64,000 nucleotides of DNA from contig NZ_KB905693.1 of assembly GCF_000380985.1 (NCBI RefSeq), forward strand, positions 124,001 to 188,000, given 5' to 3'. Position 1 is the stretch's first letter, and each line of letters opens with the position of its first letter. Under the pieces are notes generated by a model that was given only the letters and a program-made list of their open reading frames with translations, searched no databases and had not been told where the DNA came from. The DNA comes from Proteiniphilum acetatigenes DSM 18083 (GTDB taxonomy: Bacteria; Bacteroidota; Bacteroidia; Bacteroidales; Dysgonomonadaceae). The translations under genes and the position numbers were made by a program. Of this stretch, positions 25,520 through 50,904 are shown piece by piece.

Positions 25520-27148
25520 TTAATTTATCTTTCCTCCAAGATGACAATATTTTCCATACAACACGTTATATGTCTTCCGGTTTTCTCCCCTGGGAATATA
25601 TACCGTTTTATAACCCTGAGCAAAAGCTTCCTGGGCTTTTTCAATGGTTGGGAACAGGCCTGACGCAATCCCGGCGCACATCGCCGCGCCCAATGCTCCT
25701 GCCTGTTGTGTAGCCGCCACTTTAATAGGTACGCCCATGATATCGGAGAGTGTCTGCATCACATAGGGTGATTTCAATGAAATACCTCCCACTCCAATCA
25801 CCTCATTCACCTGTACACCCTCGTTCTCAAGATGCTCCATAATAGCACGGGAGCCGAAAGCTGTGGCTTCCACCAGGCTTTTGAAGATCTGCGCAGGGGT
25901 AGTAGCCAAAGTGATACCGGCAATGCCTCCCTTCAATGTGAGGTCGGCAAAGGGGGTACGTCGTCCGTTCAACCAGTCGGTCGCCACCGGATCCGACTCA
26001 GTTACCGGCAGTTTTTCCGCCTCTTCGGTCAGCTTCGACAATATCTGCGCTGTTATTTCTCTCTTTTGCTCTTCCGGGAGCAGGTTCAACGACCAGGAAA
26101 GTATCTCCTTCCACCAGGCATATACATCGCCAAAAGCAGATTGTCCTGCCTCGAGACCTATCAGGCCGGGAATAACCGACCCGTCTACCTGACCGCTGAT
26201 CCCGGGGATCAGTTTATCTGCGATATCCTCTTTCGGGGTAACCACAATATCGCAGGTAGAGGTACCGACAATTTTCACCATCGTGTGCGCTGTGATCCCC
26301 GCACCAATAGCTCCGGCATGCGCATCCAGGATGCCAACCGCAACATCTATCCCCTCAGGCAATCCGAGCCGCTCTGCCCATTCTTCGGTCAGTTTGCCGG
26401 CGGAGACATCGCTTGTGTAAGTTTTGTTCTCCAGACGGGCGGCAAATCCCCCGAACAGGGGGTCAAGTGCGGAAAGGAACTCTTGCGACGGATAACCGCC
26501 CCATGCTGACGCCCACATCCCTTTGTGTCCCGCAGCACAACGGCTACGCTTCACCTGTTCAGGCCGCAGATTTCCCGTCAATAATGCCGGCATCCAGTCG
26601 CAATGCTCAATAATGGAACAGGCTTTCTCCCTTATTTTTTTATTTGCACGAAGTACGTGCAGCGCTTTTGCCCAGAACCACTCTGAAGAGTAGATCCCTC
26701 CGGAGCGGGACGTAAAATCGGTCTCCCATTTACGGGCCAGGGCATTGATTTCATCTGCCTCCCGGATAGAAGTATGATCTTTCCAGAGAATAAACATTGC
26801 ATCGGGATCGTCGGCATATTCAGGCAGCAATGCCAACGGTGTGCCGTCACGGTCCGTCAGGCAGGGTGTGCTCCCCGTCGTGTCAATTCCAAGAGCAACA
26901 ATATTTTTCGCTTCATCAGGAGATAATTGTGCCAGTAAATCGTGAATCACCTCCACAAGCGAATCAATATAATCCTGCGGATGCTGCCGGTACCGGTTGG
27001 CAGAAGGATCACAATATAATCCTTTTTTCCAGCGGACATAACCGGAGATCGCAGTCGCCAGTTCTTTTCCGGATACGGCGTCTAAAGCTACCGCACGACA
27101 TGAATCGGTACCATAATCAATTCCTATGACTAACTTTTCCATATCCAT
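25520..27148 (-). CDS. araB: Ribulokinase (AraB-type FGGY kinase)
   Basis: A 542-residue FGGY-family kinase that follows enterobacterial AraB closely: IGIDYGTDSCRAVALD at the ATP site, YVRWKKGLYCDP, HPQDYI, FILWKDHT, GGIYSSEWFWAKALHVLR, CDWMPALLTG, RSRCAAGHK, VKIVGTSTCDI and GLEAGQSAFGD. AraB phosphorylates L-ribulose and also accepts D-ribulose. No L-arabinose isomerase or L-ribulose-5-phosphate epimerase gene lies nearby, but a fucI gene does, so here the likely reaction is D-ribulose to D-ribulose 5-phosphate, which enters the pentose phosphate pathway directly. Its start codon immediately follows the permease stop (no gap), which implies co-translation. It is the last gene before the terminator. 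Confidence 0.9.
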   Translation of the reverse strand: MDMEKLVIGIDYGTDSCRAVALDAVSGKELATAISGYVRWKKGLYCDPSANRYRQHPQDYIDSLVEVIHDLLAQLSPDEAKNIVALGIDTTGSTPCLTDRDGTPLALLPEYADDPDAMFILWKDHTSIREADEINALARKWETDFTSRSGGIYSSEWFWAKALHVLRANKKIREKACSIIEHCDWMPALLTGNLRPEQVKRSRCAAGHKGMWASAWGGYPSQEFLSALDPLFGGFAARLENKTYTSDVSAGKLTEEWAERLGLPEGIDVAVGILDAHAGAIGAGITAHTMVKIVGTSTCDIVVTPKEDIADKLIPGISGQVDGSVIPGLIGLEAGQSAFGDVYAWWKEILSWSLNLLPEEQKREITAQILSKLTEEAEKLPVTESDPVATDWLNGRRTPFADLTLKGGIAGITLATTPAQIFKSLVEATAFGSRAIMEHLENEGVQVNEVIGVGGISLKSPYVMQTLSDIMGVPIKVAATQQAGALGAAMCAGIASGLFPTIEKAQEAFAQGYKTVYIPRGENRKTYNVLYGKYCHLGGKIN

Positions 27149-28597
27149 CTATTTTCCGTTACCCAGCTTCTTGCTGCGTGCAATCGTAAAACTATAATAA
27201 GTAATAATAATAAATGCGACGGCAGGTACCCAGTAGGCGAATTTAATACTTCCCGCCTGATCGGAGAGGATACCCTGCATCTGTGTCAGTAGTGCCGCAC
27301 CGGCAATCGCCATCACCATGCCAGAACCGGCAATCTTGGTATCATCTCCCAGTCCTCTCATGCCAAGCCCGTAAATGGTGGGGAACATAGCGGACATACA
27401 ACCCGAGATACCCATCAAGGCATATACTCCCACAAATCCTTCTCCGTAAATCGTCAAAAGTGAACATATCACCGCCAGAATACCCAATCCCGACAATATG
27501 TTCACCGGCCGGGTATATTTCATCAGCCAGGTGCAGATAAAGCGTCCAAGCACAAAGAGAATAAGCGACATGATATAGTAAGTGGCGCCCGCCTGCTCGG
27601 CTGTACGTGGTAAGAGTGCATCCAGTCCGATCGCTTCACAAAGTGCATAAAAACCACCTGCCACCGGCTCTACACCGCGCAACGCCCCGATAATTGCTTC
27701 CTGCGAAGGATTTGCACCCAGACCGGCGATCACTGCATCCAAATCGAGTTGCTGCATGGCGTAACGGATGATGAACGACCAGACTGCGATCTGCGCACCC
27801 ACATAGAAAAACTGTGCCAATACTCCCCAGACGTAATTCTTATTCTTTTTTAGCCGGCTCCATGTCGCTTTCAGGTCCAAACTCTTATCGTCATCCTGTG
27901 CTTTCGGCATTTTGGTGAATATGATCAGCAGTAACAGTACCAGCATCACTGCCCCCAGGATCAGATAGGCCATGGTGACGGCATTCAGTTCACCCCGTTG
28001 AATGGCAACCAGTTCTGAGCCGCTCAGGACAGCCCTTTCGCCGGCCGTCATGGTATTCAACTGAGATAAGACAAATATCTGGCTGGCCAGCACACCGGTC
28101 AATGCACCAAACGGATTGAACGACTGAGAGAAGTTCAACCGGCGGGTAGCTGTCCTCGGATCCCCGAGTGAATAAACATACGCATTGGCTGACGTTTCAA
28201 GTACAGATAAACCGGCAAACAGCACGAAGATGCCGAAAAGATAGGTAGCAAAACTCAACGGCGAACTGATATCATTTACCAGCATAGCCGGATAAAAGAG
28301 CATCGATCCCGTTATACAAAGCGAGAGTCCTAACAATACTCCTGATTTGAAAGTGCGTCTCTTGATAAAAATTGCTCCGGGAAGTGCGAAACAACCGTAA
28401 CCGAGAAGATAGCAAACTACCTGGATCCATGCTGTTTGCGTATCGGTCAGGCTCATGATGCGCTTGAACGCTGCCAGCATGGTGTCGGTCATATTGTTGG
28501 GTACCGCCCAGATAAAGAAGAGCGAAGTAAGAAGAATAAAAGGGAGCAGGATCCCGGGAGGGATCAATCGGTGCTTTTCTACATTATTTGTGTTCAT
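27149..28597 (-). CDS. fucP: FucP-type sugar:proton symporter (major facilitator superfamily)
   Basis: A 482-residue inner-membrane transporter with about 12 hydrophobic segments. FIWAVPNNMTDTMLAAFKR, GYGCFALPGAIFIKR and LSVLETSANAYV followed by NFSQSFNPFGALTG are hallmarks of the L-fucose permease family. An extra loop of about 60 residues (around 250-320) enlarges it relative to E. coli FucP (438 residues). L-fucose and D-arabinose have the same stereochemistry around the ring carbons, and FucP is known to carry both. In this locus D-arabinose released by the GH172 and GH116 enzymes is the probable cargo. It directly abuts the ribulokinase gene. Confidence 0.85.
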   Translation of the reverse strand: MNTNNVEKHRLIPPGILLPFILLTSLFFIWAVPNNMTDTMLAAFKRIMSLTDTQTAWIQVVCYLLGYGCFALPGAIFIKRRTFKSGVLLGLSLCITGSMLFYPAMLVNDISSPLSFATYLFGIFVLFAGLSVLETSANAYVYSLGDPRTATRRLNFSQSFNPFGALTGVLASQIFVLSQLNTMTAGERAVLSGSELVAIQRGELNAVTMAYLILGAVMLVLLLLIIFTKMPKAQDDDKSLDLKATWSRLKKNKNYVWGVLAQFFYVGAQIAVWSFIIRYAMQQLDLDAVIAGLGANPSQEAIIGALRGVEPVAGGFYALCEAIGLDALLPRTAEQAGATYYIMSLILFVLGRFICTWLMKYTRPVNILSGLGILAVICSLLTIYGEGFVGVYALMGISGCMSAMFPTIYGLGMRGLGDDTKIAGSGMVMAIAGAALLTQMQGILSDQAGSIKFAYWVPAVAFIIITYYSFTIARSKKLGNGK

Positions 28598-28672: not shown

Positions 28673-29926
28673 TTAAAATATTGTCCTAACCTTTTCAAGG
28701 TTTACCCCTAATAATTTCTCAGCTATAGGAGAAAGGCTTGCCTCATCTCCTGTGAAATGGAATACGTTGTGTTTGTGCGACAGCGACTCTCCCGGTTTCA
28801 GGAATGCAGCGGGCGAGCAACTTTCCAGCTCCAGGAAGGGGCCCATAATGCTTCCGTCTTCCAACGGACCGTCGTTATAAGCATTCAACGCATCTCCTAC
28901 AAGCGGATTCCTGTCAGGATTCCATTCCTGATTCAAATAGGTTGCATCCGGTTCAGTATCAAATGTCACGATAGTCAATCGCTTTGCAAGCGGATCATAA
29001 TTTCCCGCGATCGACCTGGTGCGTTTGGCATTCATTCCCAGTTTGCCTCTTGATTTTCCATCGGTTTTAAAATAGAGGATACCATTATCGTCAACCAGGC
29101 GGTCCGCAGGAATTTCACCGAAATAATCGGATGTCACCACCTTACCCAGCTCCTTCCCGTCACCGGTATTATAAGGGATCACAGTTACGGCAGCTTCGGA
29201 CGGATTGAACATATCGAGCATCCATATACAGACCGTACCGGTCTCCGGGGTCCATTCGAAATCATTGCCATTGACAATTTTGTTGGTTGTTTCATAGGCC
29301 ACCCCATTCACTCCTTCAGGGATTTCAACCTGCAATTTACCCGTTATTTCACTGGGGGAAAGCAATACAACTTTCCGTTCTATCGCAATATTCAGGAGAC
29401 TCCCCAAGTAGTTCTTCTGTTCCATCTCCTTGACAAAAACAGCCTCTTTGGGAGTCACACGGCTTACCTCCCACTCTTCGATATCGATGGCTTTGGGAGT
29501 ATGCCAGTTATCATATACCTGCTCTTTCCCCGGCTCAAAAAATATGGAATACTTCCCCCCTTCCGGGCCGAGCCAGAAACGATCTTCTCCGCCGAAGCCG
29601 TTCATATGTTCATCTACTATACCCGCATCGAAGAAGTTGTAATTTACAAATCCGTGACTATTACCTTCCGGTCCATTAGCCGTAGAAGTAAATACTTTTC
29701 CCTGATACTTCGCCGACAGGATTATTTGTGCCTTTTCATCTTCCGACTTCAGTACGATCAATCCCTCATCTTTTTCGGACAGATAGTTAAGATCATATCC
29801 GAAAGTCCCCTTTTCATATTCCTTTTCCATATTTCCTGATGTTTTCCCGTTGCCTGTACAGGAGAGTAAAATTGCACCCCCGATTATGGCAGGCAGTACA
29901 CTGCGATAGATTTGTTTTAGTTGCAT
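28673..29926 (-). CDS. Mutarotase-like lipoprotein (DUF6786-type)
   Basis: The frame extends to a TTG at 29953, but the ATG at 29926 opens a lipoprotein signal (MQLKQIYRSVLPAIIGGAIL then LSC, Cys23), giving 417 residues. The rest is a large beta-sandwich resembling galactose-mutarotase-fold proteins: GFVNYNFFDAGIVDEHMNGF, GGEDRFWLGPEGG, IERKVVLLSP and, near the end, LEKVRTIF. I connect it with a Bacteroidetes family of unknown function (DUF6786) from memory, at moderate confidence. In the locus it may mutarotate or bind the released pentose, or be an uncharacterised hydrolase or lyase. It lies 75 bp upstream of the permease gene. Confidence 0.65.
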   Translation of the reverse strand: MQLKQIYRSVLPAIIGGAILLSCTGNGKTSGNMEKEYEKGTFGYDLNYLSEKDEGLIVLKSEDEKAQIILSAKYQGKVFTSTANGPEGNSHGFVNYNFFDAGIVDEHMNGFGGEDRFWLGPEGGKYSIFFEPGKEQVYDNWHTPKAIDIEEWEVSRVTPKEAVFVKEMEQKNYLGSLLNIAIERKVVLLSPSEITGKLQVEIPEGVNGVAYETTNKIVNGNDFEWTPETGTVCIWMLDMFNPSEAAVTVIPYNTGDGKELGKVVTSDYFGEIPADRLVDDNGILYFKTDGKSRGKLGMNAKRTRSIAGNYDPLAKRLTIVTFDTEPDATYLNQEWNPDRNPLVGDALNAYNDGPLEDGSIMGPFLELESCSPAAFLKPGESLSHKHNVFHFTGDEASLSPIAEKLLGVNLEKVRTIF

Positions 29927-30026
29927 AAGATAAAAATTAGACACAAGAGCCAAGAATCAGGAACCAAGACATTTTATTGACAATATCGGTTACTTCGTAA
30001 TTGGCCGCGTCGATTATTTAATAATT

Positions 30027-32129
30027 TCACTTGATTTTTCCGAATTTATCGAGAATACGGTTATAGGCTTCCGCAGCAGCACCGTTTCCCCAATCGTATA
30101 TTGTAAATTCTCCCATTCCTTCACCTTCGGGGCTGGTACGCCCTCCATGGCCGTAATTTTCCATCATAAAGCCGTAATCTTCCTCTCCGAAGAAGGGATA
30201 CACTTTCTCCCATTGTGCTTTGGTGACAGGATTCAGGGGACTATACATCATTACAAACGATGCTTTCAGCGCAGCCCACCCTCTCTCATTGTACTCATCA
30301 CTGTCCAAAAGTTTCCCGTATTGCAGGATCAACTCGGAGAAAAGGCTCTGGCGGGAGTCGTTCCATTCGGCATCGGCATTCAATACCCCGAAACCGCCAA
30401 GCACATTCACATACATGTAGGGCGGCTGCCACGAAGCCTGTGTCATCAGCAATTCATCGAGGGTACGCCGCCCCTGTTCCAGATATCGCCGGTCGCCGGT
30501 CATCCGGTAACATTCGAACAGTGCTTCGGCCGTCCAGAACATGGAGAAATTATTCTGTTTGTACATATTATTTCTGACGACTTTTTTCCCGACAAGGTGA
30601 TCTGCTCCATACCGCGAACAGGACCAGTAGGTCTCGAAATCCTCCCATCTTCCCGAGGGAATGATGTCCCGGATTACCGCATCGATGGCTTTGAGACCTG
30701 CCTCTTTGTATTCCTGTTTTCCGGTCAGCTCATAGAGTTTCAAAAGAAAGGTCGCCGACATAGAGGTCTCAGGCGATCCATTCAGGTGAGTCATCGGTTG
30801 CAGCGTGCGCAGGTCGAGCCATCCCGGGAAAAAACCATTCTCCGACTGGATACCGAGCAATGATCCGGCGTATTGTTCCGCGTAACGAAGTAATCGTTCA
30901 TCCTTTTCCAGTTCATCATACCAACGAAGCATGAGCAACGCGGTCCAGCTCATATCGAGAATATGGAATGGTGATTCGGCAGCATTCCAGGTATAAGGAT
31001 TCCGGTTTGAATTTCCCCAGTAGCAGGCATCCCATCCCTTACTACGGTTATATTTTCTCCCCTCGATCTCCACTTCATGCATCTCTGTGCCGATCAAGCC
31101 GTAAAAGAAACCTTCAACCTGTGGAAAAGAGAGAGCCAACTCTTTGGTAAGCAGCGCCTTTTCCATCAAGGCTGTGTTGCCGGTCCTTCTGGCATACCGG
31201 TACAATCCGCCGGCAGAACGCAGGGAACTAAACCAGGCCTGATTCCATACCGAACGGAATTCCCGTTCATTGACTTCTCCTGGATAATTGGGGCTCTGCG
31301 TGACATTCACGATAAAAACCGGTGAACCGACCTTCTTACCGTCCAGTTCGAACTCCTGCCATACGTTATCCGCCCAACTGTTGAAAGCCCAGTTATAGGT
31401 GTGCTCCACATATCGTTCCAAATCGGCATCTACCGGATTCCCGGCCTGATAAAGATCATGCCCCCAACGATTCCAGAGGAAATCGAGTGGCCTCCTGAAA
31501 GGGTTTTTTAGTGACGCTTCGTCACTATGCACCATCAGGAAAAATCCGATCTCCACTTCTCCTGCCGGATACTCAGCACCCGGTTCACGGACAAACAGGA
31601 CATGATCGTCGACCCTGCTGTTACTCATCCCCAATACCAGGCGATTATTTTCAGCATCGAGATCGAGATACCATCTTACCGGAGTTCCCTTTTTCATAAT
31701 ATCAAGATCGGGGATCAGGGTAATCACCTGCCGGTCATCGGCGACGATCAGTGCCGGAGAACGGAATACATGCTGGTCGATAATATGGCTGCCGGTAGGT
31801 GTAAGGTGGGGCGCCCAATGGAAAGACGGGGTAAACCCGGGAGTGACAATCACCTGCCAGTCATCCTGGTGAACAGTCTGGCCGGGAGAGAAGTTGAACT
31901 GTATGTGGAGGCAATTCTCGTCCACCACCTCGATCCGGCTGGTCCCCTTTTCACTCCCCAACAGGTCATATTGGATTTTTCGAACAGCTTTCTCCAATGA
32001 ACGGGGCAGCTTCAGCTCCATCGGCAAAGATTGGCTCCCTACCCTGGCATCCTGTGCCTGCACCACGGAAGAGAAAATCATAACCGTACCCAACACTGTA
32101 TAAATAAGCCTCTTTATCATATTTTTCAT
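30027..32129 (-). CDS. Unclassified secreted six-hairpin glycosidase-like protein
   Basis: A 700-residue protein with a signal peptide (MIKRLIYTVLGTVMIFSSVV then QA). Residues about 30-210 form a beta-sandwich. From about 225 the sequence is helical with aromatic-rich repeats typical of (alpha/alpha)6 barrels: VEHTYNWAFNSWADNVWQEF, WNQAWFSSLRSAGGLYRYA, GWDACYWGNSNRNPY, GSPETSMSATFLLKLYELTG and FSMFWTAEALFECYRMTG. I do not recognise a CAZy family. Its place within the D-arabinan-type locus makes it a candidate for a missing activity, for example on the galactan or linker part of arabinogalactan or on modified arabinose. Conserved acidic residues cannot be assigned as catalytic without an alignment. 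Confidence 0.7.
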   Translation of the reverse strand: MKNMIKRLIYTVLGTVMIFSSVVQAQDARVGSQSLPMELKLPRSLEKAVRKIQYDLLGSEKGTSRIEVVDENCLHIQFNFSPGQTVHQDDWQVIVTPGFTPSFHWAPHLTPTGSHIIDQHVFRSPALIVADDRQVITLIPDLDIMKKGTPVRWYLDLDAENNRLVLGMSNSRVDDHVLFVREPGAEYPAGEVEIGFFLMVHSDEASLKNPFRRPLDFLWNRWGHDLYQAGNPVDADLERYVEHTYNWAFNSWADNVWQEFELDGKKVGSPVFIVNVTQSPNYPGEVNEREFRSVWNQAWFSSLRSAGGLYRYARRTGNTALMEKALLTKELALSFPQVEGFFYGLIGTEMHEVEIEGRKYNRSKGWDACYWGNSNRNPYTWNAAESPFHILDMSWTALLMLRWYDELEKDERLLRYAEQYAGSLLGIQSENGFFPGWLDLRTLQPMTHLNGSPETSMSATFLLKLYELTGKQEYKEAGLKAIDAVIRDIIPSGRWEDFETYWSCSRYGADHLVGKKVVRNNMYKQNNFSMFWTAEALFECYRMTGDRRYLEQGRRTLDELLMTQASWQPPYMYVNVLGGFGVLNADAEWNDSRQSLFSELILQYGKLLDSDEYNERGWAALKASFVMMYSPLNPVTKAQWEKVYPFFGEEDYGFMMENYGHGGRTSPEGEGMGEFTIYDWGNGAAAEAYNRILDKFGKIK

Positions 32130-32214
32130 ATGACTAAAATATTTATTTTCAATGGTGTCATATGGAACTCGCTTTTAGTCATGATCTTGTGTGATAATGA
32201 TTATCATGCTCGTT

Positions 32215-32330
32215 TCAAATCATCAAAATCACCACTACTTCCCAAAAAATCGGGAAAAGTTATCCCGACTTGCCGGGATCATCAAAATCACCACATCATC
32301 AAATCAGTGAATCATCAAATCAATTTATTC
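32215..32330. repeat. ATCATCAAAATCACCAC direct repeats around a small hairpin
   Basis: The phrase ATCATCAAAATCACCAC occurs twice (about 32219 and 32278, the second as ATCATCAAAATCACCAC continuing into AAATCAGTGAATCATC). Between them is a hairpin, ATCCCG (32262-32267) with CGGGAT (32274-32279). The block occupies the 190-bp gap between the long GH172 gene and the six-hairpin gene, within an otherwise tightly packed operon, and could form an RNA processing or attenuation site. Confidence 0.5.
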
Positions 32331-34266
32331 TTTCGAGTATGATCTGATTCAGTTCGAACTGATCGGCTTTCCCGTTATTTCTCACATGAAAAGTGACGGA
32401 ATTTGTCTGGGGCGTGAGTTGTATATCCCCCACATGAACATTCTCCCGGAAAGTTTCTTTCCCGGCTTTAGTCGATATCCAGTCCGAAAGGCGGTTCTGA
32501 CGTTGCCATACCTGGAAATCAGCGCCGGTCGGCTTTTCGTGGTAGTTAACCAATACCCTGTATTTCCCTTCAGGTACATCCGTAAGCATCACCCTGACCA
32601 TACCCTGTCCAAAGGAGGTAAGCATCAACCCTCTGTCTAAAATAGCCTGTATTCCCCTGTCGAGGGTAATCTCCATCAGCTGCGGGAAATAGATATGCTT
32701 TTCAGGAAAGTAGACCTCCCTTAAATCCGCGGTCGGTTCCATCCGTTCTTTCAACGGTTGTGCCGCGTAAAAGAATGCAACAGACGTATAATCTACGGGA
32801 AAATTATTGCCTACCTCTCCATGTTCCATACCGTGATAGATTTCTTTCCCGAAAGACATCTTATCCGAAAAGAAAAAACGGTAGCCTCCGGTACGTCCCA
32901 TCGGCAGGGAATAATCAAGCGAACCGTGTATCGGCATGCTGATTCCCCTGTCCCACCGGTCGAGCAGCGCATACCACCCTCCGTTATAATAATCTTCCGA
33001 ACCGGTACCATGCAGACGCATTTTTCCATCCACATATGTGGTATCATCTCCCTCGAAGAAAAGAGTCATACCCGGTCGCAAACCCTGTGCCTGATGGATG
33101 GTCCCCACATAATGACCTTTTCCTTTGGTTTCCATAAAAGTATAGAACTGACCCGATTCAGGTTTTTCTCTTCTCCAAACGGTATAGAGTTTCCCTTCCT
33201 CATTGAGATTTCGTCCGTTGTCGTTATAATACACTTTCACATTCACCGGTACAGCGTTTTGCTGTACTCCTTCCCTTTTCTCATAGATGAGTTTCATGGA
33301 AGCCGATCTATCGAAAGGCATGGGCAGGTAACAGTAGTTGGAAGTTTGCTGCCGTCCCATCACGATACTTCGCATAGCCGGTTTTCCGTAGGCATAACCG
33401 AAAAAATCAGCCAGGGGGGCATAGATGGCTTCTACCTGTTCATCATCCCACTTTGCGGAAAGGATGATATCTTTATAAATCCCTTCAAATGCAGTTCCAC
33501 CGTCAATCTCAAAACCGACAATACGGCCCGGGGTTGTTTTCTCAAAGAAAGCTACCTCTTCTCCCGGTTCAATAGTAAATGTTTTTTCTTCGGTACGGAC
33601 ATTGGACGATAAACCGGTTGCATAGCGGTTTACTGTAGGTGATATATCAGCCCATACGTCACTCACCTCTGCCAACAATTCTTTGTCGGAAGCGGAGAAA
33701 TTCCCGGTCCAGCTTTCCACATTCATTCCGGGTAGCATCCGGTATTGAATTTGATGGAACATGATCCGCTCTCCCTGGAACACGATCTTTAATGATTTTG
33801 CGAATGGAATAGGGATATAGCTGTAATACCCTCCTATTTCGTTACCACAAACCGGTTTTACGAAAGGATAGACCTTTCCCGAAAAAAGATCCATAAAACG
33901 AATCTTCAGGCGTGGGACCCGTTCTCCATCGAAGTAAAACAACAATGTGTCTTCTGTAGGTGTAGGAGTCCATATACGGTTGACCACACCCGCCCCTTCG
34001 AATTCGGCCAGCACCAATCCCTCCTTCTCCTTACGAATGAAAGAATAGTTACCACTAAATCCGTCGTCGTTTCCTCCTGTCCGGTCGTAACTCGACTCCT
34101 GTTCTATCAATTGATTATGCCGATATGCAGGCAACCGATCCACTCTTTTCAGAAGCTCCACCTCATCGTTCCACCGGTAAGTTTGGTTTTGCCCGTTCAT
34201 CTGAAAGAGAGATAATAAAAACGTAAAAATGAGTAATAATGTCTTCAATCCTATTCTCTTCATCAT
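32320..34266 (-). CDS. GH172 (DUF2961) enzyme, long form with C-terminal beta domain
   Basis: A 648-residue protein with a signal peptide (residues 8-26). The DUF2961 core spans about 40-480: EFEGAGVVNRIWTPTPTEDT, LLFYFDGE, GYYSYIPIPFAKSLKI, then FEGDDTTYVDG and LHGTGSEDYYNGGWY, which hold the two conserved acidic motifs (the E in EGDD and the E in GSEDYY) that match the catalytic pair of the family. A C-terminal domain of about 150 residues follows (YRVLVNYHEKPTGADFQVWQ). GH172 members include exo-alpha-D-arabinofuranosidases and difructose dianhydride I hydrolase. With two shorter paralogues in the same locus, differing linkage specificity is likely. A 55-bp gap precedes it. Confidence 0.87.
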   Translation of the reverse strand: MMKRIGLKTLLLIFTFLLSLFQMNGQNQTYRWNDEVELLKRVDRLPAYRHNQLIEQESSYDRTGGNDDGFSGNYSFIRKEKEGLVLAEFEGAGVVNRIWTPTPTEDTLLFYFDGERVPRLKIRFMDLFSGKVYPFVKPVCGNEIGGYYSYIPIPFAKSLKIVFQGERIMFHQIQYRMLPGMNVESWTGNFSASDKELLAEVSDVWADISPTVNRYATGLSSNVRTEEKTFTIEPGEEVAFFEKTTPGRIVGFEIDGGTAFEGIYKDIILSAKWDDEQVEAIYAPLADFFGYAYGKPAMRSIVMGRQQTSNYCYLPMPFDRSASMKLIYEKREGVQQNAVPVNVKVYYNDNGRNLNEEGKLYTVWRREKPESGQFYTFMETKGKGHYVGTIHQAQGLRPGMTLFFEGDDTTYVDGKMRLHGTGSEDYYNGGWYALLDRWDRGISMPIHGSLDYSLPMGRTGGYRFFFSDKMSFGKEIYHGMEHGEVGNNFPVDYTSVAFFYAAQPLKERMEPTADLREVYFPEKHIYFPQLMEITLDRGIQAILDRGLMLTSFGQGMVRVMLTDVPEGKYRVLVNYHEKPTGADFQVWQRQNRLSDWISTKAGKETFRENVHVGDIQLTPQTNSVTFHVRNNGKADQFELNQIILERIN

Positions 34267-35488: not shown

Positions 35489-35552
35489 AATAAACAAATT
35501 AAAAATTTATTGATATTCTTAGAAACTGTTTTGAATTTTCCGAATTTATTAT

Positions 35553-39653: not shown

Positions 39654-39697
39654 ATCTCTGTTTTCTAAATAATCTAAATAATCGTTTGTACTATTCT

Positions 39698-41128: not shown

Positions 41129-41181
41129 ACACTTTTTTCGGCTAAATGCTATTTAATCAATTCTCTGTGAACAAAGATAAA

Positions 41182-41238: not shown

Positions 41239-41261
41239 CACTACTTATGGTATCACAGTTG

Positions 41262-41678
41262 TCATTCAATTTTAATTATTACACCTTCAGAAAAGACCCT
41301 GTCGGTAAATCCTTCTTCTTTTGCTTCGGGAGTCAGAAAACCCAGCAATTTGACAATAAACCGGTACTCTTTATTCGGATCTATTGTAATCTGTGCAGAG
41401 TTGACCTCATCGAATACGGAGATTCTCTGTCTGTAAATATCATCCTCCACCACCTGAATACTTGCTTCCAGCGGTCGATTGAAGTCCTGAGGGATATTGC
41501 CGGGTATCTGCCATGACAGTCTAACCACATTTCCTTCCAGCGTATAAGACAGATTCTCTACTTTAGGTAAGGAATAATTAAAATCTTTCCTGTCGATAAT
41601 ATCTCTGTCGTAGCACCCTGTAAACAGTACTAAGATCAGTGCTACAATAATCAGTTTTCCTATTTTTCTCATAACCAT
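41262..41678 (-). CDS. Small Fn3-like surface lipoprotein behind SusD
   Basis: The frame is open to 41699 (TTG) and an ATG at 41696 overlaps the SusD stop as TGATG, but the ATG at 41678 (or 41672) gives a normal lipoprotein signal (MVMRKIGKLIIVALILVLFT then GC). About 138 residues. One beta-sandwich domain of Fn3 type is apparent (YTLEGNVVRLSWQIP, YRFIVKLLGF). No catalytic motif. In Sus loci this position is held by SusE/SusF-type surface glycan-binding proteins; a binding role is inferred from position only. Confidence 0.72.
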   Translation of the reverse strand: MVMRKIGKLIIVALILVLFTGCYDRDIIDRKDFNYSLPKVENLSYTLEGNVVRLSWQIPGNIPQDFNRPLEASIQVVEDDIYRQRISVFDEVNSAQITIDPNKEYRFIVKLLGFLTPEAKEEGFTDRVFSEGVIIKIE

Positions 41679-41695
41679 AGATTTTATTTCCGGCA

Positions 41696-43515: not shown

Positions 43516-46500
43516 TTAGAATGTTACATTAACTCCAAAAGCCATGGTGAATGGTGTCAGATAACCGTACCCCGGCATTTCAGGATCAAAACTGGTATAT
43601 CTGTCTTTTCCCCATCCTTTTTTCAGCGTAAGTACATTACGTGCAGAAGCATAAATCCGAAGGTGTTGCATCATCATCGCATTCGTAAGCTGTTTCGGGA
43701 AGGTGTAACCCAGTTCTATATTTCTCAACTTCAGATAGGAGCCGTCTTCAACAAAATAGGAGGAAAACCGCTGCTCGCTATTTGGATTTGAATTGGACAT
43801 AGCCGGAATATCGGAATCGGGATTATCGAAATACCATGCATCCAGTATTCTTTTTTCATGATTCTTTCCAGCGGGAACGGAGATATTCCAAAGATCACTT
43901 TCCTGTTTCCAGATATTATTTACCTTATTACCGTATACACCCTGGAAAAAGATGTTCATATCAAAATTCTTATAACCGAGGTCAAAGGTGATTCCCCCGA
44001 AAAAGTCAGGATCGGTAATTCCTATAAAAGTACGGTCATACAATTCATCAACGACCCCATTCCCATCCAGGTCCTTATAACGGATCCTTCCGATGGCCTT
44101 TCCTGTCTGCTCGGCATGGTTATCCACCTCTTCCTGGGTTTTGAAGATGCCATCGGCCACCATTCCATAAAGGATATTAGGCGTTCTGCCTAAGACAAAA
44201 TCATGCATACCGTCACCCGGATACCTGTTGACCACATTTTCGGGAAGTTCTACCAGTTTTGTCCTGTAAGAACCGATATTGGCCGTTATGGCATATTGAA
44301 ACTCAGCGGTTGGATCGTTTCTGTAAGTAATCTCGAATTCAACACCCTGATTATTCATATTGGCTCCATTGATCCAGGGTTCACCTCCTTCACCCATAGC
44401 GGCAATATAAGGAACCTGTACCAACACATCGTTTGTCTTTTTAAAATAATAGCTTAACGAACCGAACAGGCGTTGATTCAGAAAACCAAAATCGACTGCA
44501 ATATCAGTCTGTTTTGTCGTCTCCCACTTTAGATTGGGATTTCCAAGCCAGGTTCTCCGGTAACCAGACCAAAGCGGTCCGCTTTCATTACCTTCTATCG
44601 GATAGGATGTACCAAAATAATCGGTTGTAAAAGGTGTGGAAGTATATCCACGCGGCAATCCCTGCACATTTCCGTTGGCTCCCCAGCTTGCACGAAGCTT
44701 CAGATCAGATACAGCTTCCACGTCAGCCATAAAGGGTTCGTTGTTGATTCTCCATCCGGCCGAAACTGCAGGAAAAATTCCATAGCGGTTGTTCGCACCA
44801 AAGAGTGATGACCCATCTCGTCGTAGTGTAAATGAAAGGAGATACTTTGAGTCAAGGGCATAATTTACTTTTCCAAAGAGTGATAAATAGACATATTCAT
44901 CTGCCGAACTCCCCAATGAATATTTTGTACCGGTAGTCACACCGATATGGGCAAAATCCCTGTCTTCAAGGTATATCCCCTCCCTTCTGGCCGAAAATCC
45001 TTCCTGTACGAATCGGGTAAATTCGGTACCCGCCACCGCATCCAATGAATGTCTTCCGGTATTCAGCGTATAGGAAAGGGTATTGGTCCATACATAACTC
45101 AATGGATGCGACTGGTAGCTTCCTACATAATTTTCCCCGTCGCTGTTCCTTCCGCCGGTCTCAGACCAGATGCCGTCGACCGCCCTGTTATAGGCATTAC
45201 CGTAATCTACCCCGAACTGGGTACGGGCTGATATTCCTTTCCAGATATCAAGGTCAAGGAAAATATTACCGATTATTTTCACGTAATTATTGATATTGTC
45301 TTTATTCATTGTCAATAGACGTACCGGATTGGTAAAATCATCAAAGCCGGGAGCTCCCGCCCAGTTACCGTTGATGTCGTAAACCGGCCCGGCAGGAGGA
45401 TTGATCATTGCCCAACGGGTTTCGTTCGAATTCCTGTATTGCAGATAGGTCAACGCGATATTCTCACCGATTTTCAACCGGTTATTCAATAAGGCGTATT
45501 CCGTATTGGCACGCACCGAGTATTGTCTGAAAAAGGTATGAATTTGCGTACCTTCATTGTTATAATAACCCAATGAAAACAGGCTCTTTGACCGATCTGT
45601 TCCTTGAGAAACGGTCACCTGATGGTTTGTCATCATCGCGGTACGGAAGATTTCGTCCATCCAGTCGGTATCCGAGCCTCTGACAGTCTGTTCCGGATTG
45701 AGCCATTCCGCCGGTTTCACCCCGTCGAGCACTGCCAATTCGTTGTCATTTCTGTGCCAGGTAAAATCATAGGTAGTGGGTAATGACATAGATACGCCAT
45801 ACACTTTCTCGTCATATGCCTGCGCTCTGAAAGCAGCTATTCCGTACTCTTCAGCATTCATCAACCGGGGTTTGTTCACAACGGAACTGAATGAAACACT
45901 TCCGTTGTATTCAACGGATATTGCACCTTCTTTCCCTTTTTTGGTTTGAATCAAAATTACGCCCCCTGATGCGCGTGCACCGTATATACTGGCTGAAGCA
46001 GCGTCTTTCAATATCTGAATCGATTCTATATCTCCGGAATTAATATCCCTAAGGTTGAGATTCTCCGTGGGCATCCCATCCAATACGATCAACGGTTTTA
46101 CTCCACCTGAAAGGGAAGAGAGCCCTCTAATCTGAATATTCACATCTTCAGCAGGATTTCCCCCGTTTGTTGTAATATGGACCCCGGAAAGTTTTCCCTG
46201 CAACGCTTTCATCGCATTGGCCGAAGGATTCTTGATGATATCACTGCTCGTCGCCATGGAAACAGATCCGGTAAGATCGGCTTTCCTTTGTGTCATATAG
46301 CCTGTATAAACCAATTCTTCCAGCATGGTAGCATCATCTTCCATCACCACATCAATTACCGTCGCTCCTCTCACGGATTGTTCCACTGTCCTCTTTCCGA
46401 TAAAGGAAAAAACCAGTACCGCATCCTCTGAAGGCACGTTTAGCTGGTATCTACCATCCATATCGGTGATAGTACCAACAGTTGTACCTTTCACATATAC

Positions 46501-46659
46501 ACTTGTTCCCGGCAAGGGGTCATTGGTATTTTGTTCTGTAACAACTCCTCTGATGGTTTTAGCCTGTTGTATCTGGTTGGGTGTCTGGGCTGCAAAGGTA
46601 TAGAGAGTGAATCCCAGAAACAGACAAACCAAAGCGAGTTTGCTTATAAAATTTTTCAT
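43516..46659 (-). CDS. SusC/RagA-family TonB-dependent transporter (PUL B)
   Basis: A 1047-residue outer-membrane protein: signal peptide (MKNFISKLALVCLFLGFTLY then TFAA), carboxypeptidase-regulatory-like domain (about 36-115), plug with MQTRKADLTGSVS-type segment (here MTQRKADLTGSVSMATSSDI) and SIQILKDAASASIYGARASG, then the barrel ending in LTPFTMAFGVNVTF with terminal Phe. It would import D-arabinan fragments cut by the surface GH183 enzyme. It follows the GH172 gene by 21 bp and precedes SusD by 12 bp. Confidence 0.95.
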   Translation of the reverse strand: MKNFISKLALVCLFLGFTLYTFAAQTPNQIQQAKTIRGVVTEQNTNDPLPGTSVYVKGTTVGTITDMDGRYQLNVPSEDAVLVFSFIGKRTVEQSVRGATVIDVVMEDDATMLEELVYTGYMTQRKADLTGSVSMATSSDIIKNPSANAMKALQGKLSGVHITTNGGNPAEDVNIQIRGLSSLSGGVKPLIVLDGMPTENLNLRDINSGDIESIQILKDAASASIYGARASGGVILIQTKKGKEGAISVEYNGSVSFSSVVNKPRLMNAEEYGIAAFRAQAYDEKVYGVSMSLPTTYDFTWHRNDNELAVLDGVKPAEWLNPEQTVRGSDTDWMDEIFRTAMMTNHQVTVSQGTDRSKSLFSLGYYNNEGTQIHTFFRQYSVRANTEYALLNNRLKIGENIALTYLQYRNSNETRWAMINPPAGPVYDINGNWAGAPGFDDFTNPVRLLTMNKDNINNYVKIIGNIFLDLDIWKGISARTQFGVDYGNAYNRAVDGIWSETGGRNSDGENYVGSYQSHPLSYVWTNTLSYTLNTGRHSLDAVAGTEFTRFVQEGFSARREGIYLEDRDFAHIGVTTGTKYSLGSSADEYVYLSLFGKVNYALDSKYLLSFTLRRDGSSLFGANNRYGIFPAVSAGWRINNEPFMADVEAVSDLKLRASWGANGNVQGLPRGYTSTPFTTDYFGTSYPIEGNESGPLWSGYRRTWLGNPNLKWETTKQTDIAVDFGFLNQRLFGSLSYYFKKTNDVLVQVPYIAAMGEGGEPWINGANMNNQGVEFEITYRNDPTAEFQYAITANIGSYRTKLVELPENVVNRYPGDGMHDFVLGRTPNILYGMVADGIFKTQEEVDNHAEQTGKAIGRIRYKDLDGNGVVDELYDRTFIGITDPDFFGGITFDLGYKNFDMNIFFQGVYGNKVNNIWKQESDLWNISVPAGKNHEKRILDAWYFDNPDSDIPAMSNSNPNSEQRFSSYFVEDGSYLKLRNIELGYTFPKQLTNAMMMQHLRIYASARNVLTLKKGWGKDRYTSFDPEMPGYGYLTPFTMAFGVNVTF

Positions 46660-46680: not shown

Positions 46681-47880
46681 TCACTCATTTCCCCACAACT
46701 GTGGGTCATTTCCTTTCGCTTTCCGCCAGGCATCTCTCCAGCGGTGCATATCCATATGGTTGATAAAAGGCTTGGGTTTACGTGCTTCCTTAGATGGCGC
46801 CGGAGGCAATTTTACCGCACTGTCCTGATACCAGTAAGCCACAGTGGCCAGATCAAGGGTGAGATTGTTGTTGTGTCCTGTTTCAATGGTTCCTTTCACT
46901 TCTGTTTCAAAGAAAATGGGGTCATTGATAAAAAAACGGTACACATGGGTTCTTCCCAGCCAGCCTATATCGTTATTCACCCTGGGATAACCGAAATGGG
47001 GATGTGAGAACGGCTCTTTGGGACACCAGGAGGTATTGAAGAAATCTTCCGTACCGGTGCCGATCAAAGAAGGGGTCTTCTCCCCGTCGATAAACCACAT
47101 ATCATCTCCCTCGCCGTACCACATGGGGGTAGGAGAGTGTACGTAATAATTGATCCCTACAAAATGCCCTTTCCCTTTGGTTTCGATAAAAACATAGTTC
47201 CGGTCTAACTGGGTATTGGGCTTCCATTCGCCTGTCAGTGCCCATTCAGTTTCTCCTTCAGGCAGGGCTTTGGATAGGCTATGATTATACCAGGCGTGAA
47301 AACGGCCCATTCCTTCGGAAAGTTCCGCCATCTCCAGATAGTCTACATAAAAATAGAAAGCATTGATCGTCTTATCGGTCTGATTCTCAATCTCTATTCT
47401 CGCTCCTTTCTCAAAGGGCATCGCAAAATAACTGCTCAGTCCTGTTCCGTTCTCAGGTCCTGCCGACAAGGGAAGCGAAGCGTAATTATACCGCTCGTCC
47501 CATCCCTGTCCAAAGAAAGGCCCGATAGGTGATTCCACCGAGGGATAATCGTTCCCGTCCCAATACATCCTGATAATGATATCGTTCCTGCTTAATTCAC
47601 CGGGTGGAGGAGCAATGGTAATCCAGATATGGTTGATTACACCTGTCCCTTTTATCTCCGCAATAGTTCGTTTTTCACCGGGCTTGAACGGTTCCAGATG
47701 GTCCCGGTTTCCTCCTGTGGGATCGGTACTGGATATCCTCCTGTTTTTCATGCCCGACTTCAATTTTGCCAGTTCAAACATCTCCCCCATCGACTCTGTT
47801 TGGGAAAAGAGGGGTAATGAAAGCATAATTCCCAAAATAAGGGTGCTTAATTTCAGCATTTTAAAGTTAATTTTCTTCAT
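46681..47880 (-). CDS. GH172 (DUF2961) enzyme, third copy
   Basis: A 399-residue protein with a signal peptide (LKLSTLILGIMLSLPLF then SQ). DUF2961 landmarks: IAEIKGTGVINHIWITIAPP, MYWDGNDYPSVESPIGPFFG, KGHFVGINYYVHSPTPMW, YGEGDDMWFIDGEKTPSLIG and GTGTEDFFNTSWC; the Glu residues in GEGD and GTED are the likely catalytic pair. It is closer in length and motif wording to the copy at 34322 than to the long copy at 32320, but clearly divergent. It lies directly ahead of the Sus pair, so it is probably expressed early and strongly. Exo-alpha-D-arabinofuranosidase activity is inferred. Confidence 0.9.
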   Translation of the reverse strand: MKKINFKMLKLSTLILGIMLSLPLFSQTESMGEMFELAKLKSGMKNRRISSTDPTGGNRDHLEPFKPGEKRTIAEIKGTGVINHIWITIAPPPGELSRNDIIIRMYWDGNDYPSVESPIGPFFGQGWDERYNYASLPLSAGPENGTGLSSYFAMPFEKGARIEIENQTDKTINAFYFYVDYLEMAELSEGMGRFHAWYNHSLSKALPEGETEWALTGEWKPNTQLDRNYVFIETKGKGHFVGINYYVHSPTPMWYGEGDDMWFIDGEKTPSLIGTGTEDFFNTSWCPKEPFSHPHFGYPRVNNDIGWLGRTHVYRFFINDPIFFETEVKGTIETGHNNNLTLDLATVAYWYQDSAVKLPPAPSKEARKPKPFINHMDMHRWRDAWRKAKGNDPQLWGNE

Positions 47881-47956
47881 TCTATCTATTTATTTACAAT
47901 TTAAGAATACGATTGATATAAGATTATTACATAAAGGATTACAGACTCTATAAAAT

Positions 47957-47988
47957 CTTTATTCTTTACTCCTTACTCTTTATTCTTA
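47957..47988. repeat. TCTTTATTC/TTTACTC pyrimidine repeat
   Basis: The end of the 105-bp gap after fucI and the last codons of fucI are built of TCTTTATTC, TTTACTCC and TTACTC units. Almost the same string occurs at 16711-16742, between genes of PUL A. Confidence 0.45.
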
Positions 47989-49761
47989 TCTATACACCGG
48001 TCCGTAAGCTGCACAGGCACGGTAATCCGCCCCTTCGTTATCAGAACCGAATGCGGACCATGCATCCGGACGGAAGATCTTTTCATCATCCACATTGTGC
48101 ATATTCACCGGAATAGAAAGCGCCGAAGCCAGTGTGATCAGGTCGGCACCGATATGTCCATAACTGATAGCACCATGATTTGCACCCCAATAGTTCATCA
48201 CCGAATAGATATCTGTAAAGCGGCCTTTACCGGTGATGCGCGGTACGAAGAAGGTAGACGGCCATGTCTTGTCGGTTCGTTTGTTGATGATGTCGAAAAC
48301 TTCTTCAGGAAAGGTGGCTGTCCATCCTTCAGCAATCTGTAATACAGGCCCCAATCCCTTGATCAGGTTCAGGCGGCACATGGTCACCGGCATACCTGCC
48401 CTGGTCAGAAATTGTGAAGAATATCCTCCTCCACGCATATACTCAAGCGATGCAGGATACCAGGTAGTGGCATTGAGCATCTTTTCCACCTCTTCCTCAC
48501 TGATCTCCCAGAAAGGTTTCATCACAGGATTGCCGTTTTCGTCCGACTGCTGACCGGTACCGTCAAGGGTACATGAACCGGAATTGATGAGGTGGATCGC
48601 ACCATCTTTCAATATTCCTTCAGGTTTCCATCCGCTTACCCGTTCTATCGCTTCGGGACTCCAATAGGTACGTACATCGGCAAAGATCTGGGAAGTATTG
48701 GTAAGTAGTTGGTTGAATAACATACTGATACCGTTAAGGTGATCATCCTCAGTAGCAAAAGTGAATGGTTTCCGGATCCCGTTCCAGTCGAATGAAGAAT
48801 TGAGGATCGCTTCCGAAAAATCACCATCGGGCAGAAAATCGGTCCACTGCCGTTGCCCCTGAAAACCTCCCGCTATGGCATTGTGCCCAAGGGCTTCTTC
48901 ACCATATCCCATAGTGTCCAGTACCGGATTTCCAATCATCAGGTCACGCATAATCAGTGTCATCTTCACCACGAACTCCCAGTCTTTATCTTTCTGTTCC
49001 CGGCTGTGCTTCAGATGTTCAGGATTAAAATCCTCTCCCTCACGAGTCATACAGTGCTCTTTTGTCCACTGCATCGCTTTGGCGAATTCATCATGATTAT
49101 AGATACCCAGTTGAATGCGGCGAAGTATTTCACTGGCATCCACAAATTCGGTACGCATCCCGAGGTACTCCTGCAAGAAATCGGGATTGGTCATAGAGCC
49201 ACCGATCCCCATCGAGACGGAACCGATGGAGAGGTATGATTTCCCCCGCATGATAGCCACGGCAAGTCCCGCCTTCGCAAAGCGAAGCAGTTTCTCCTGT
49301 ACATCGGTCGGAATCGACGGGTCGTTCATATCCTGTACTTCCCTTCCGTAAATACCGAATGCAGGCAGTCCCTTTTGATTATGAACCGCCAGCGCAGCCG
49401 AAAGATAAACCGCGCCGGGGCGCTCCGTACCGTTGAATCCCCAAATCGCTTTCGGGATATTAGGATTCATGTCAATGGTCTCAGATCCGTAACACCAGCA
49501 GGGGGTAACAGACAGGGAAAGCCCTACGTTCTCCTTTTCAAATTTTTCAGCACATAAGGCTGCTTCTTTCACCCCTCCGATACAACTGTCGGCAATCACA
49601 CATTCTACCGGAGAACCGTCGGGATACCGAAGATTTTCACGGTATAACTTTTCTACACTTTTCGCCAGATTCATAGTGGTATCTTCGAGAGATTCCCTGA
49701 TGCCTCCGCGTCGTCCGTCAATCACAGGACGAATTCCGATCTTAGGATAATTTTGTTGCAT
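47986..49761 (-). CDS. fucI: L-fucose/D-arabinose isomerase
   Basis: A 591-residue enzyme nearly collinear with E. coli Fuc[108 protein letters not shown] and [20 protein letters not shown]. The manganese-ligand Glu, Asp and His segments are all present. The enzyme is also called D-arabinose isomerase, since it turns D-arabinose into D-ribulose as well as L-fucose into L-fuculose. With arabinan-type hydrolases and a ribulokinase but no fuculokinase or fuculose-phosphate aldolase in the locus, D-arabinose is the better guess. First structural gene after the LacI gene, behind two identical operators. Confidence 0.95.
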
Positions 49762-49801
49762 ACAATTTAGTTTACTTTTTTATACTATATATAAAGGATA
49801 G

Positions 49802-49817
49802 AATTAAACGTTTAACT
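49802..49817. promoter_or_regulatory. LacI-type operator AATTAAACGTTTAACT (fucI proximal)
   Basis: A perfect 12-bp palindrome TTAAACGTTTAA (49804-49815) with central CG, 40 bp upstream of fucI. The surrounding 16 bases are identical to the site at 49877. The intervening DNA has a weak -7-like element (TGCTTTTG on the minus strand, 49855-49862), so the pair may bracket the promoter. Confidence 0.82.
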
Positions 49818-49876
49818 ACTACCCTCACACTTATCACAATTATTTAATCCTATACAAAAGCAATTTATCAGAGATT

Positions 49877-49892
49877 AATTAAACGTTTAACT
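49877..49892. promoter_or_regulatory. LacI-type operator AATTAAACGTTTAACT (fucI distal)
   Basis: Second identical copy, 75 bp from the first (about seven helical turns), between the LacI stop and fucI. Two in-phase operators suit looping by a tetrameric or higher-order LacI repressor. Confidence 0.82.
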
Positions 49893-49908
49893 GACTGTAG
49901 AAAAAATT

Positions 49909-50904
49909 TCAGGTAATCAATTCTGCTTCCAAAAAGAGTTTTTGGTTTTTTACATCCTTTTTCTCTATCTGATCAATCAGCAGTTCCAATGCACTTTTAG
50001 CCATTTCTTCGATAGGTTGTTTAATGAAGGGTACCCTAAAGGGGAACAAATTAATAGCATCAGTTTCATCAAAACACATTACCTGAATATCTTTTTGAAT
50101 AAGCATTCCTCGTTTGAACAACGATTTCACACCCGCCATGGAGATAGTATTGGTAGCAAAGAAAATGGCATCTACTTTTTTTTCACATTTCAATAATTGT
50201 GAAATAGCCTTATCCATATCTTCATTCAAATATTGATAACTTACCTCCTTCACATGATCCGGAGTAAAAAGTCCTGCATCTTTCATTGCCTCTATGAATC
50301 CCCGTTTTCGTTCGTTGGTATGAAACTGATCCTGTCTGTAAGTAATGAATGCCGGATTTTTAAATCCCTGGTCAATCAACTGCTTTGTGGAACGATAACA
50401 TATTTCATAATTGTTGATCAGTACAGAAGGAACGTTTAAATCCGGAAATCCCCTGTCTACCAAAACCAACGGTTTCTTACCTTTCAAAACCGATTCTATC
50501 AAAACCTCACTTCCTTCTGCAGGAGTGATGATTAAACCATCCACCTGTCGGGAATTAAGAAAAGTGATTATCTTTCCCATCTCCTCCAATTTTTCATTGG
50601 TATTACCAATAATCACTGTGTATCCTTCTTTCTCAGCGTAATTCTGAATATGGAGAGCCAACGTGCCAAAAAATACATTCGAAATATCAGCGACTATTAA
50701 TCCGATTGACTTGGAATGGCCCATTTTCAAACCTTTGGCCAGGCTATTAGGTATATAATGCAACTCAGCCGCTTTATCTATGATTTTTTTTGACATTTCC
50801 TCACTTACCCTGCCATTCTTGTTCTTTCCGTTCAGAACAAGTGACACGGTTGCAGCAGATACTCCTAACTCTTTTGCTATTACCTTTAAGGAAACTTTTT
50901 CCAC
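49909..50904 (-). CDS. LacI-family transcriptional regulator of PUL B
   Basis: A 331-residue regulator beginning at a GTG (no better ATG nearby; MEKVSLKVIAKELGVSAATV starts the helix-turn-helix at once). Hinge SLAKGLKMGHSKS and a periplasmic-binding-protein-like domain follow. The protein ends at AELIT, a few residues before the point where most relatives carry a polar tail (the paralogue at 24148 continues through QQSSQRHP); this is probably not damaging. Paired operators before fucI and one palindrome in its own promoter suggest it represses the whole arabinan locus and itself, with D-arabinose, D-ribulose or a phosphate of it as probable inducer. Confidence 0.92.
   Translation of the reverse strand: MEKVSLKVIAKELGVSAATVSLVLNGKNKNGRVSEEMSKKIIDKAAELHYIPNSLAKGLKMGHSKSIGLIVADISNVFFGTLALHIQNYAEKEGYTVIIGNTNEKLEEMGKIITFLNSRQVDGLIITPAEGSEVLIESVLKGKKPLVLVDRGFPDLNVPSVLINNYEICYRSTKQLIDQGFKNPAFITYRQDQFHTNERKRGFIEAMKDAGLFTPDHVKEVSYQYLNEDMDKAISQLLKCEKKVDAIFFATNTISMAGVKSLFKRGMLIQKDIQVMCFDETDAINLFPFRVPFIKQPIEEMAKSALELLIDQIEKKDVKNQKLFLEAELIT

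Follow-up and report, generated by a model that had tools for sequence, protein, structure and literature searches.

Which glycan is degraded by a tightly packed set of glycoside hydrolase (GH), transport and pentose genes in Proteiniphilum acetatigenes DSM 18083, and is this combination of enzymes new? The window analysed here is a stretch of 64,000 nucleotides (G000:C2:124001-188000 of the 4.78 Mb genome), and the locus lies at 25520-50904 on its minus strand. Our comparisons indicate that it is very probably a D-arabinan utilisation locus of the same kind as PUL42, a polysaccharide utilisation locus (PUL) of Dysgonomonas gadei, and that the enzyme set itself is already known. D-arabinan as the substrate, the reading given in the initial annotation of the window, is well supported by sequence comparison: the nearest relatives of solved structure, the residues published for them and a probably dedicated set of pentose genes all point to it. 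New in this work are the predicted operator, a match to a published Crp-type motif before lacI, and signs in related genomes of a front end swapped as a cassette.

Organization of the locus

The locus consists of 15 minus-strand genes, from lacI as the first to a ribulokinase gene as the last, with intergenic gaps of at most 190 bp, which bears out the one-strand, tightly spaced unit described at the outset. It is flanked by ychF on one side and on the other by a second cluster that carries a lacI of its own. SusC and SusD (SusCD), GH183, GH172, GH116, FucI and the kinase are thus encoded in one cluster, as in loci of the PUL42 kind, and all DUF2961 matches in the genome fall within it. The genes are as follows.

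49909..50904, minus strand: lacI, LacI-family regulator (family match)
47986..49761, minus strand: fucI, L-fucose/D-arabinose isomerase, predicted to convert D-arabinose to D-ribulose (above the TIGR01089 cut-off)
46681..47880, minus strand: GH172c (DUF2961), putative exo-alpha-D-arabinofuranosidase (close to BACUNI_00161 and DgGH172c)
43516..46659, minus strand: SusC-type TonB-dependent transporter (family match)
41696..43504, minus strand: SusD-type protein (family match)
41262..41699, minus strand: DUF4945 lipoprotein-like protein, perhaps for surface glycan binding (between SusD and GH183)
39698..41128, minus strand: GH183 (DUF4185), putative endo-D-arabinanase (match to positions 2-309 of the 309 in the Pfam model)
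38601..39701, minus strand: unk366, 366-residue protein without a family
35553..38591, minus strand: GH116, ExoMA2-related, putative exo-beta-D-arabinofuranosidase (nearest solved structure)
34322..35497, minus strand: GH172a, ExoMA1-like, putative exo-alpha-D-arabinofuranosidase (nearest solved structure)
32320..34266, minus strand: GH172b, DUF2961 and a second, partial DUF2961 match (in this it resembles DgGH172b)
30027..32129, minus strand: 700-residue protein, possibly an (alpha/alpha)6 barrel, no Pfam family (weak matches)
28673..29953, minus strand: DUF6786 protein (family match)
27149..28597, minus strand: fucP-type sugar:H+ symporter (above the TIGR00885 cut-off)
25520..27148, minus strand: araB-type ribulokinase, putative D-ribulokinase (above the NF003154 cut-off and 6 bits short of TIGR01234)

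The gene list of the initial annotation was correct in most members. It had overlooked the DUF4945 gene, and its DUF4861 label for unk366 was not upheld: unk366 has no Pfam match at E<=5, and none of 11 aligned members has one at E<=1. Neither Pfam nor the solved structures contain a convincing relative of unk366, and a profile search gave matches at chance level.

Glycoside hydrolases and published D-arabinan enzymes

The nearest solved structures are EndoMA1 for GH183 (8hhv, 2e-52), ExoMA1 for GH172a (8ic8, 7e-115) and ExoMA2 for GH116 (8ic6, 1e-103), other GH116 entries being at 4e-13 or weaker. GH172c is closest to the uncharacterised BACUNI_00161 (8e-230), followed by DgGH172c of D. gadei (6e-192). 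In EndoMA1, D33, D51 and E243 are given as nucleophile, acid/base and third carboxylate, and R198 and W138 are also named (PMC10509167). Read off the structure alignment, these five correspond to D172, D190, E383, R335 and W280 of GH183, which are invariant in alignment A1 (12 sequences, namely the window GH183 and 11 others, but not L007, which is near-identical, or L008, L015, L018 and L022, whose matches are interrupted or split). GH116 has counterparts of E431 and D557 and of the specificity pair H446/R483 described for ExoMA2 (PMC10509167), if the chain numbering is taken to run 4 above that of the paper, an offset that fits all four. GH116 therefore carries the residues of the exo-beta-D-arabinofuranosidases of subfamily 4, an assignment judged by residues rather than by a subfamily tree. 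The catalytic glutamates of DgGH172c, E233 and E254 (PMC10115798), are both matched in GH172c, in GH172a and, despite its weak overall similarity, in GH172b, as read off the alignments.

The GH172 family includes the alpha-D-fructofuranosidase alphaFFase1, and DgGH172c, to which GH172c is close, has been called highly similar to it (PMC10509167); this speaks for an alternative reading as a fructan or difructose-anhydride locus built on enzymes of that type. GH172a scores higher with ExoMA1, and GH172c with DgGH172c, than either does with alphaFFase1. Asn253 of ExoMA1 is said to exclude fructofuranose, alphaFFase1 having Gly at this place (PMC10509167), and GH172a has Asn there. Because of these scores and this Asn we rejected the fructan reading, which we consider highly improbable. 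We know of no fructan role for GH183 or for GH116 of the ExoMA2 type.

Some observations on the GH172 proteins weigh against the D-arabinan reading. At the place of Asn253, GH172b has Tyr, and GH172c has the Cys that is also present in DgGH172c. No solved GH172 is more than weakly similar to GH172b (best 7e-23), and DgGH172b, described as having 1.5 domains, was weak on some substrates (PMC10115798).

A pattern script found a lipobox followed by C-S-K-E-E in GH183 and a lipobox also in DUF4945. By eye, SusD and DUF6786 are lipoprotein-like and the N-terminus of GH116 is twin-arginine-like. These readings follow the general localisation rules for lipobox and twin-arginine signals.

Pentose route

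The locus kinase is a ribulokinase; its score with the fuculokinase model is 44 bits, far below the cut-off of 471, and a family search of the locus proteins gave no match to AraA, AraD or FucA. FucI is thus not accompanied by the pair of fuculokinase and fuculose-phosphate aldolase typical of L-fucose loci, no aldolase family being matched. Elsewhere the genome has a second AraB-type kinase (59% to the locus kinase) near AraA and an aldolase-II (araD-like) gene at C1:305-310 kb. It also has a second FucI (68% to the locus FucI) adjoining fucP, a GntR-type regulator and SusCD; this second fucP is 36% to the major facilitator superfamily (MFS) transporter of the locus. Since separate araA/araB and FucI/FucP genes exist elsewhere and the locus has no AraA, AraD or FucA, its own fucI, fucP and araB look like a dedicated route from D-arabinose to D-ribulose 5-phosphate.

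The names FucI, FucP and AraB would also suit an L-fucose or L-arabinose glycan locus that merely resembles D-arabinan loci, and the 700-residue protein lends this some weight. Nine of its 12 aligned members match the GH127 model PF07944 at E<=0.1 (best 8.7e-7), and GH127 is a family of beta-L-arabinofuranosidases, which counts against D-arabinan. The 'six-hairpin' label that the protein had been given has its sole basis in these weak matches; the protein belongs to no Pfam family and its profile has no solved-structure match at E<=1. The gene accompanies GH183 loci but occurs without them too. No family known to us as L-fucosidase or L-arabinofuranosidase scores above the Pfam cut-off in the locus, in which two proteins are unclassified. 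The second araB beside araA and the second FucI/FucP pair make L-arabinose or L-fucose an unlikely target. With the genes for these pathways located elsewhere and none of araA, araD and fucA in the locus, we rejected both readings; the chance that either holds is very small.

Two results temper the D-arabinose assignment. FucI alone is not diagnostic, because FucI proteins of 79-82% identity occur in five loci that lack GH172. In a tree of 59 kinases, 20 of the 21 non-locus kinases group together, apart from the 38 locus kinases, with weak support (83/40), so we do not call this clade proven. The remaining one, G088_L271, is a long branch next to the locus clade, and a topology that keeps the 38 locus kinases strictly apart from the 21 others is rejected (p-AU 6e-7). 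The other kinases were labelled L-ribulokinase from their position outside the locus, araA adjacency being shown for the second kinase of the window genome only.

The five GH172-less FucI loci (G013, G010 C23, G090, G032 and G021; L225, L227, L229, L233 and L235) share a different conserved gene cluster, which includes a DHDPS-family protein (47-50%).

Relation to known D-arabinan loci

PUL42 of D. gadei contains FucI, three GH172 (tags 02467, 02471 and 02479) and two GH183 (02480 and 02481) (PMC10115798), and its GH116 is 02468 (PMC10509167). D. gadei is not among the loci that we kept (78 from the best 80 of 163 GH183 matches, GH183 loci being widespread). The comparison with its D-arabinan loci, suggested in the initial annotation, was therefore made through Dysgonomonas sp. 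UBA7710 (L038, genome G010, contig C44, where the border between two fetched pieces runs through one SusC) and the published tags. The order in UBA7710 is GH172a, GH116, DUF6786, the 700-residue protein, GH172b, FucI, SusC, SusD, DUF4945, SusC, SusD, an fn3-like protein, GH172c, GH183, GH183 and AraB. It places all six published PUL42 tags at the right ordinal, and the combination of enzymes thought to be new is therefore probably that of PUL42. The initial annotation had proposed that a Sus pair, all three glycosidase families and a complete pentose route in one LacI-controlled unit might be novel; UBA7710 already has this enzyme set, and PUL42 probably does.

The window locus has FucI, three GH172, GH183 and GH116 in common with PUL42, and SusCD, DUF4945, DUF6786, the 700-residue protein and the AraB-type kinase in common with UBA7710. 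It differs from UBA7710 in gene order, in adjoining ychF and in having one SusCD pair and one GH183 where UBA7710 has two of each. The UBA7710 stretch contains weakly similar LacI (36%) and MFS (27%) genes; unk366 was not matched in it, and an operator of the window type is absent before its fucI. A locus of Microbacterium arabinogalactanolyticum likewise has GH183 endo-, GH172 exo-alpha- and GH116 exo-beta-enzymes and a putative isomerase and kinase, with active-site residues equivalent to those in the window (PMC10509167). That locus differs in being from a Gram-positive organism and in having a putative ABC importer, exo-enzymes without signal sequence and four GH183 genes. Among the literature matches listed, direct work on these loci is limited to PMC10115798 and PMC10509167. 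To these the locus described here adds one more GH183/GH172/GH116 set, complete with a pentose route.

Predicted regulation

The following sites were predicted upstream of lacI and in the gap between lacI and fucI.

50976..50991, minus strand: Crp/BT4338-type palindrome upstream of lacI, in accord with the published consensus TATGTTnTAnAACATA
50947..50962, minus strand: predicted LacI operator O3, upstream of lacI (autoregulation)
49877..49892, minus strand: predicted LacI operator O1, lacI-fucI gap
49802..49817, minus strand: predicted LacI operator O2, lacI-fucI gap

The palindrome AGTTAAACGTTTAAYT is common to the fucI upstream regions of related loci. Allowing up to 2 mismatches it occurs in the window at O1 and O2 (0.03 expected), and up to 3 mismatches give the same two sites (0.31 expected), two or more being found in 4 of 100 shuffles. 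O3 reads AATTAATCGATTAACC, and the pattern RRTTAAWCGWTTAAYY has three exact places genome-wide, all in this locus. With 1 mismatch allowed, 27 of 30 loci having a LacI of at least 55% identity carry the operator no more than 260 bp from fucI (shuffles, 0.01 of 30), and none of the 10 loci counted without such a LacI does. The conserved palindrome thus goes with the presence of the regulator, as would be expected of a LacI-controlled operon. The LacI control put forward at the outset gains support from this operator prediction, and its support is limited to it.

Some results count against the operator. The reversed pattern, used as a control, has two genome matches, and the strength of the operator therefore lies in its position and conservation, not in its count. 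The motif was discovered and tested on overlapping sets of loci. Three LacI loci (G074, G100 and G080) lack the site before fucI; in G074 fucI has moved away from lacI and the site is before its lacI, and G080 has a site before lacI only. G063, one of the 10 loci counted as without LacI, does have one, but the start of its lacI falls outside the fetched piece; two sites are present further up.

Two places agree with the Crp/BT4338 consensus (PMC3878776), one ahead of lacI (50976-50991) and one ahead of the lacI of the second cluster (25234-25249); with up to 2 mismatches on both strands there are 4 matches at these two places, against 0.26 expected. The predicted operator could serve as a D-arabinose-responsive sensor.

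Conserved core and variable cassette

GH183 was found at E<=1e-20 in 14 of 101 family genomes, and more distant DUF4185 relatives may exist in the rest. FucI of at least 76% identity occurs at 41 full-length places in 40 family genomes, in addition to two fragments (G016 and G076) that were not fetched. The loci mapped comprise 43 entries: 31 LacI-linked, five of the Dysgonomonas type, the five GH172-less FucI loci and two outside the family. The lacI-fucI arrangement is thus kept in 31 of 101 family genomes. Several of these assemblies are fragmentary and some are metagenome-derived.

In the 17 loci judged free of contig breaks, where FucI is present in all by construction, DUF6786 and FucP occur in 17 and LacI in 16, the seventeenth (G063) being cut by the fetched piece. 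GH172a, GH172b and the kinase are each present in 16, the 700-residue protein in 15 and GH172c in 13. Window-type SusCD with GH183 is found in 9 and GH116 in 9. ychF adjoins 12 of the 17; in three it would fall outside the fetched stretch, and G081 and G097 have other genes there. In the alternative cassettes a different SusCD accompanies DUF4886 (in G060 also GH43) or a diverged GH183 (28%); further loci carry a GH43/GH59/sulfatase set or lack SusCD altogether. For example, G081 (L200-L201) combines the same core with a cassette containing GH43, two GH59, a sulfatase, a BT_3987-like protein and a 41% relative of unk366. From these comparisons, lacI, fucI, the GH172 genes, the 700-residue protein gene, the DUF6786 gene, fucP and araB look like a stable core, usually beside ychF, and the front-end part with SusCD and the endo-enzyme seems to have been repeatedly exchanged among species.

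The core proteins of G061 are nearly identical to those of G081, and the cassettes of the two differ; the near-identical cores of G000, G053 and G051 share cassette type A. On the FucI tree of 31 loci, where many forks are unresolved, the cassette labels require 20 changes; shuffled labels require 20.6 on average, and 87 of 200 shuffles need no more than the real labels. On a tree of three core proteins from 22 loci the labels require 12 changes, against a mean of 12.6 for shuffles (85 of 200 need no more). The labels were set by eye, and three loci cut by contig ends were labelled 'unknown' in the FucI tree and are absent from the 22-locus tree. Because the change counts match the shuffles, the distribution of cassette types over the core tree cannot be told from a random one.

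Two comparisons bear on how such exchange could occur. Between lacI and the first part of araB, each 500 bp of G051 has 88-99% identity to the window, and outside that tract, on the ychF/nadA side and in the rest of araB, identity is 67-83%; the pattern suggests a recombination tract of roughly 24 kb over the locus. In Proteiniphilum sp. X52 (G063), similarity to the window breaks off within unk366 (window position 39223) and starts again at GH172a (35489); where the window has GH116, X52 has a DUF4886 gene and a second SusCD. In Bacteroides, variable PUL content between fixed core genes has been explained by homologous recombination (Pudlo et al. 2022, PMC8845570). The loci described here likewise show variable PUL content between core genes, but differ from that report in that exchange also occurs inside one locus, the regulator and the downstream core staying in place. 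In a limited search, front-end exchange within one PUL was not found described among the literature matches listed.

The evidence is evenly balanced as to whether these loci are core-plus-cassette PULs, in which a fixed D-arabinose core would be retargeted to different D-arabinose-containing glycans by recombinational swapping of capture and endo-enzyme cassettes. The DUF4886 cassette and the 700-residue protein would then represent new D-arabinan-active families. If confirmed, the pattern shows how a PUL can be redirected to another substrate with its regulator and central pathway left as they are. The 700-residue protein, unk366 and the DUF4886 proteins of the relatives are candidate enzymes for dissecting mycobacterial-type arabinan.

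In G051 (L118) an in-frame stop interrupts GH183 and the GH116 frame is broken, and in G050 (L119) the GH183 frame is broken, from either decay or sequencing errors.

Proposed pathway and natural substrate

We propose that the GH183 lipoprotein would cut alpha-linked D-arabinan at the cell surface and that SusC and SusD, with DUF4945, would import the fragments. In the periplasm, GH172a, GH172b and GH172c would release alpha-D-arabinofuranose (alpha-D-Araf) and GH116 beta-D-Araf, with the 700-residue protein, unk366 and DUF6786 perhaps carrying out side steps. D-arabinose would then be imported by FucP, isomerised to D-ribulose by FucI and phosphorylated to D-ribulose 5-phosphate by the AraB paralogue. 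LacI, bound to the two palindromes before fucI and the one before lacI, would repress the operon until a sugar of the pathway appears, and the Crp-type site before lacI may join this control.

D-arabinan is best known from mycobacterial cell walls, and we infer that such walls may be the natural food. The same enzymes and pathway might serve instead for D-Araf glycans from other sources, such as pilin glycans, some lipopolysaccharides or corynebacterial wall debris, a possibility to which we give limited but real credence. The front-end cassettes vary among relatives, one having GH43, GH59 and a sulfatase, as if several D-Araf glycans were targeted, and these sources were raised for gut bacteria by the authors of PMC10115798. 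The GH183/GH172/GH116 set of Microbacterium, in turn, was shown to dismantle lipoarabinomannan and a synthetic arabinan fully (PMC10509167), which weighs against these other sources.

Other features of the window

An intrinsic-terminator-like hairpin marks the probable end of the operon.

25451..25495, minus strand: intrinsic-terminator-like hairpin with a 20-bp stem, directly past the kinase gene

Across the region the number of terminator-like sites is not above that in shuffles, and only this long hairpin after araB was used. Counts of sigma-70 promoters are likewise not above shuffles (16 against a shuffled mean of 24.0, and 32 against 27.7). Repeats within the locus are few and two-copy.

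In the gap before GH183 (41129-41261), an inverted repeat, GGGTGTACCG ... CGGTACACCC, precedes a TATCTTTG box, which we take to resemble the Bacteroidota -7 element; this may be an internal attenuator or promoter. In the 190-bp gap between GH172b and the gene of the 700-residue protein, 32100-32227 has 76-85% identity to sequence at other places of the loci in X52 and G088, which raises the question of a mobile or recombinogenic element.

The second cluster (833-25164) encodes its own LacI (24148-25164), a DHDPS-family protein, a PKD protein, SusCD, and PhoPQ-related, YdjC, phosphatase/ceramidase-like, GH2 and Gfo/Idh proteins. Its lacI adjoins araB in four mapped relatives (G053, G063, G088 and G042), different genes being found there in others. 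Four partial DUF4185-like matches occur elsewhere in the genome (C1, C2, C4 and C15; L002-L005), one of them above the Pfam cut-off.

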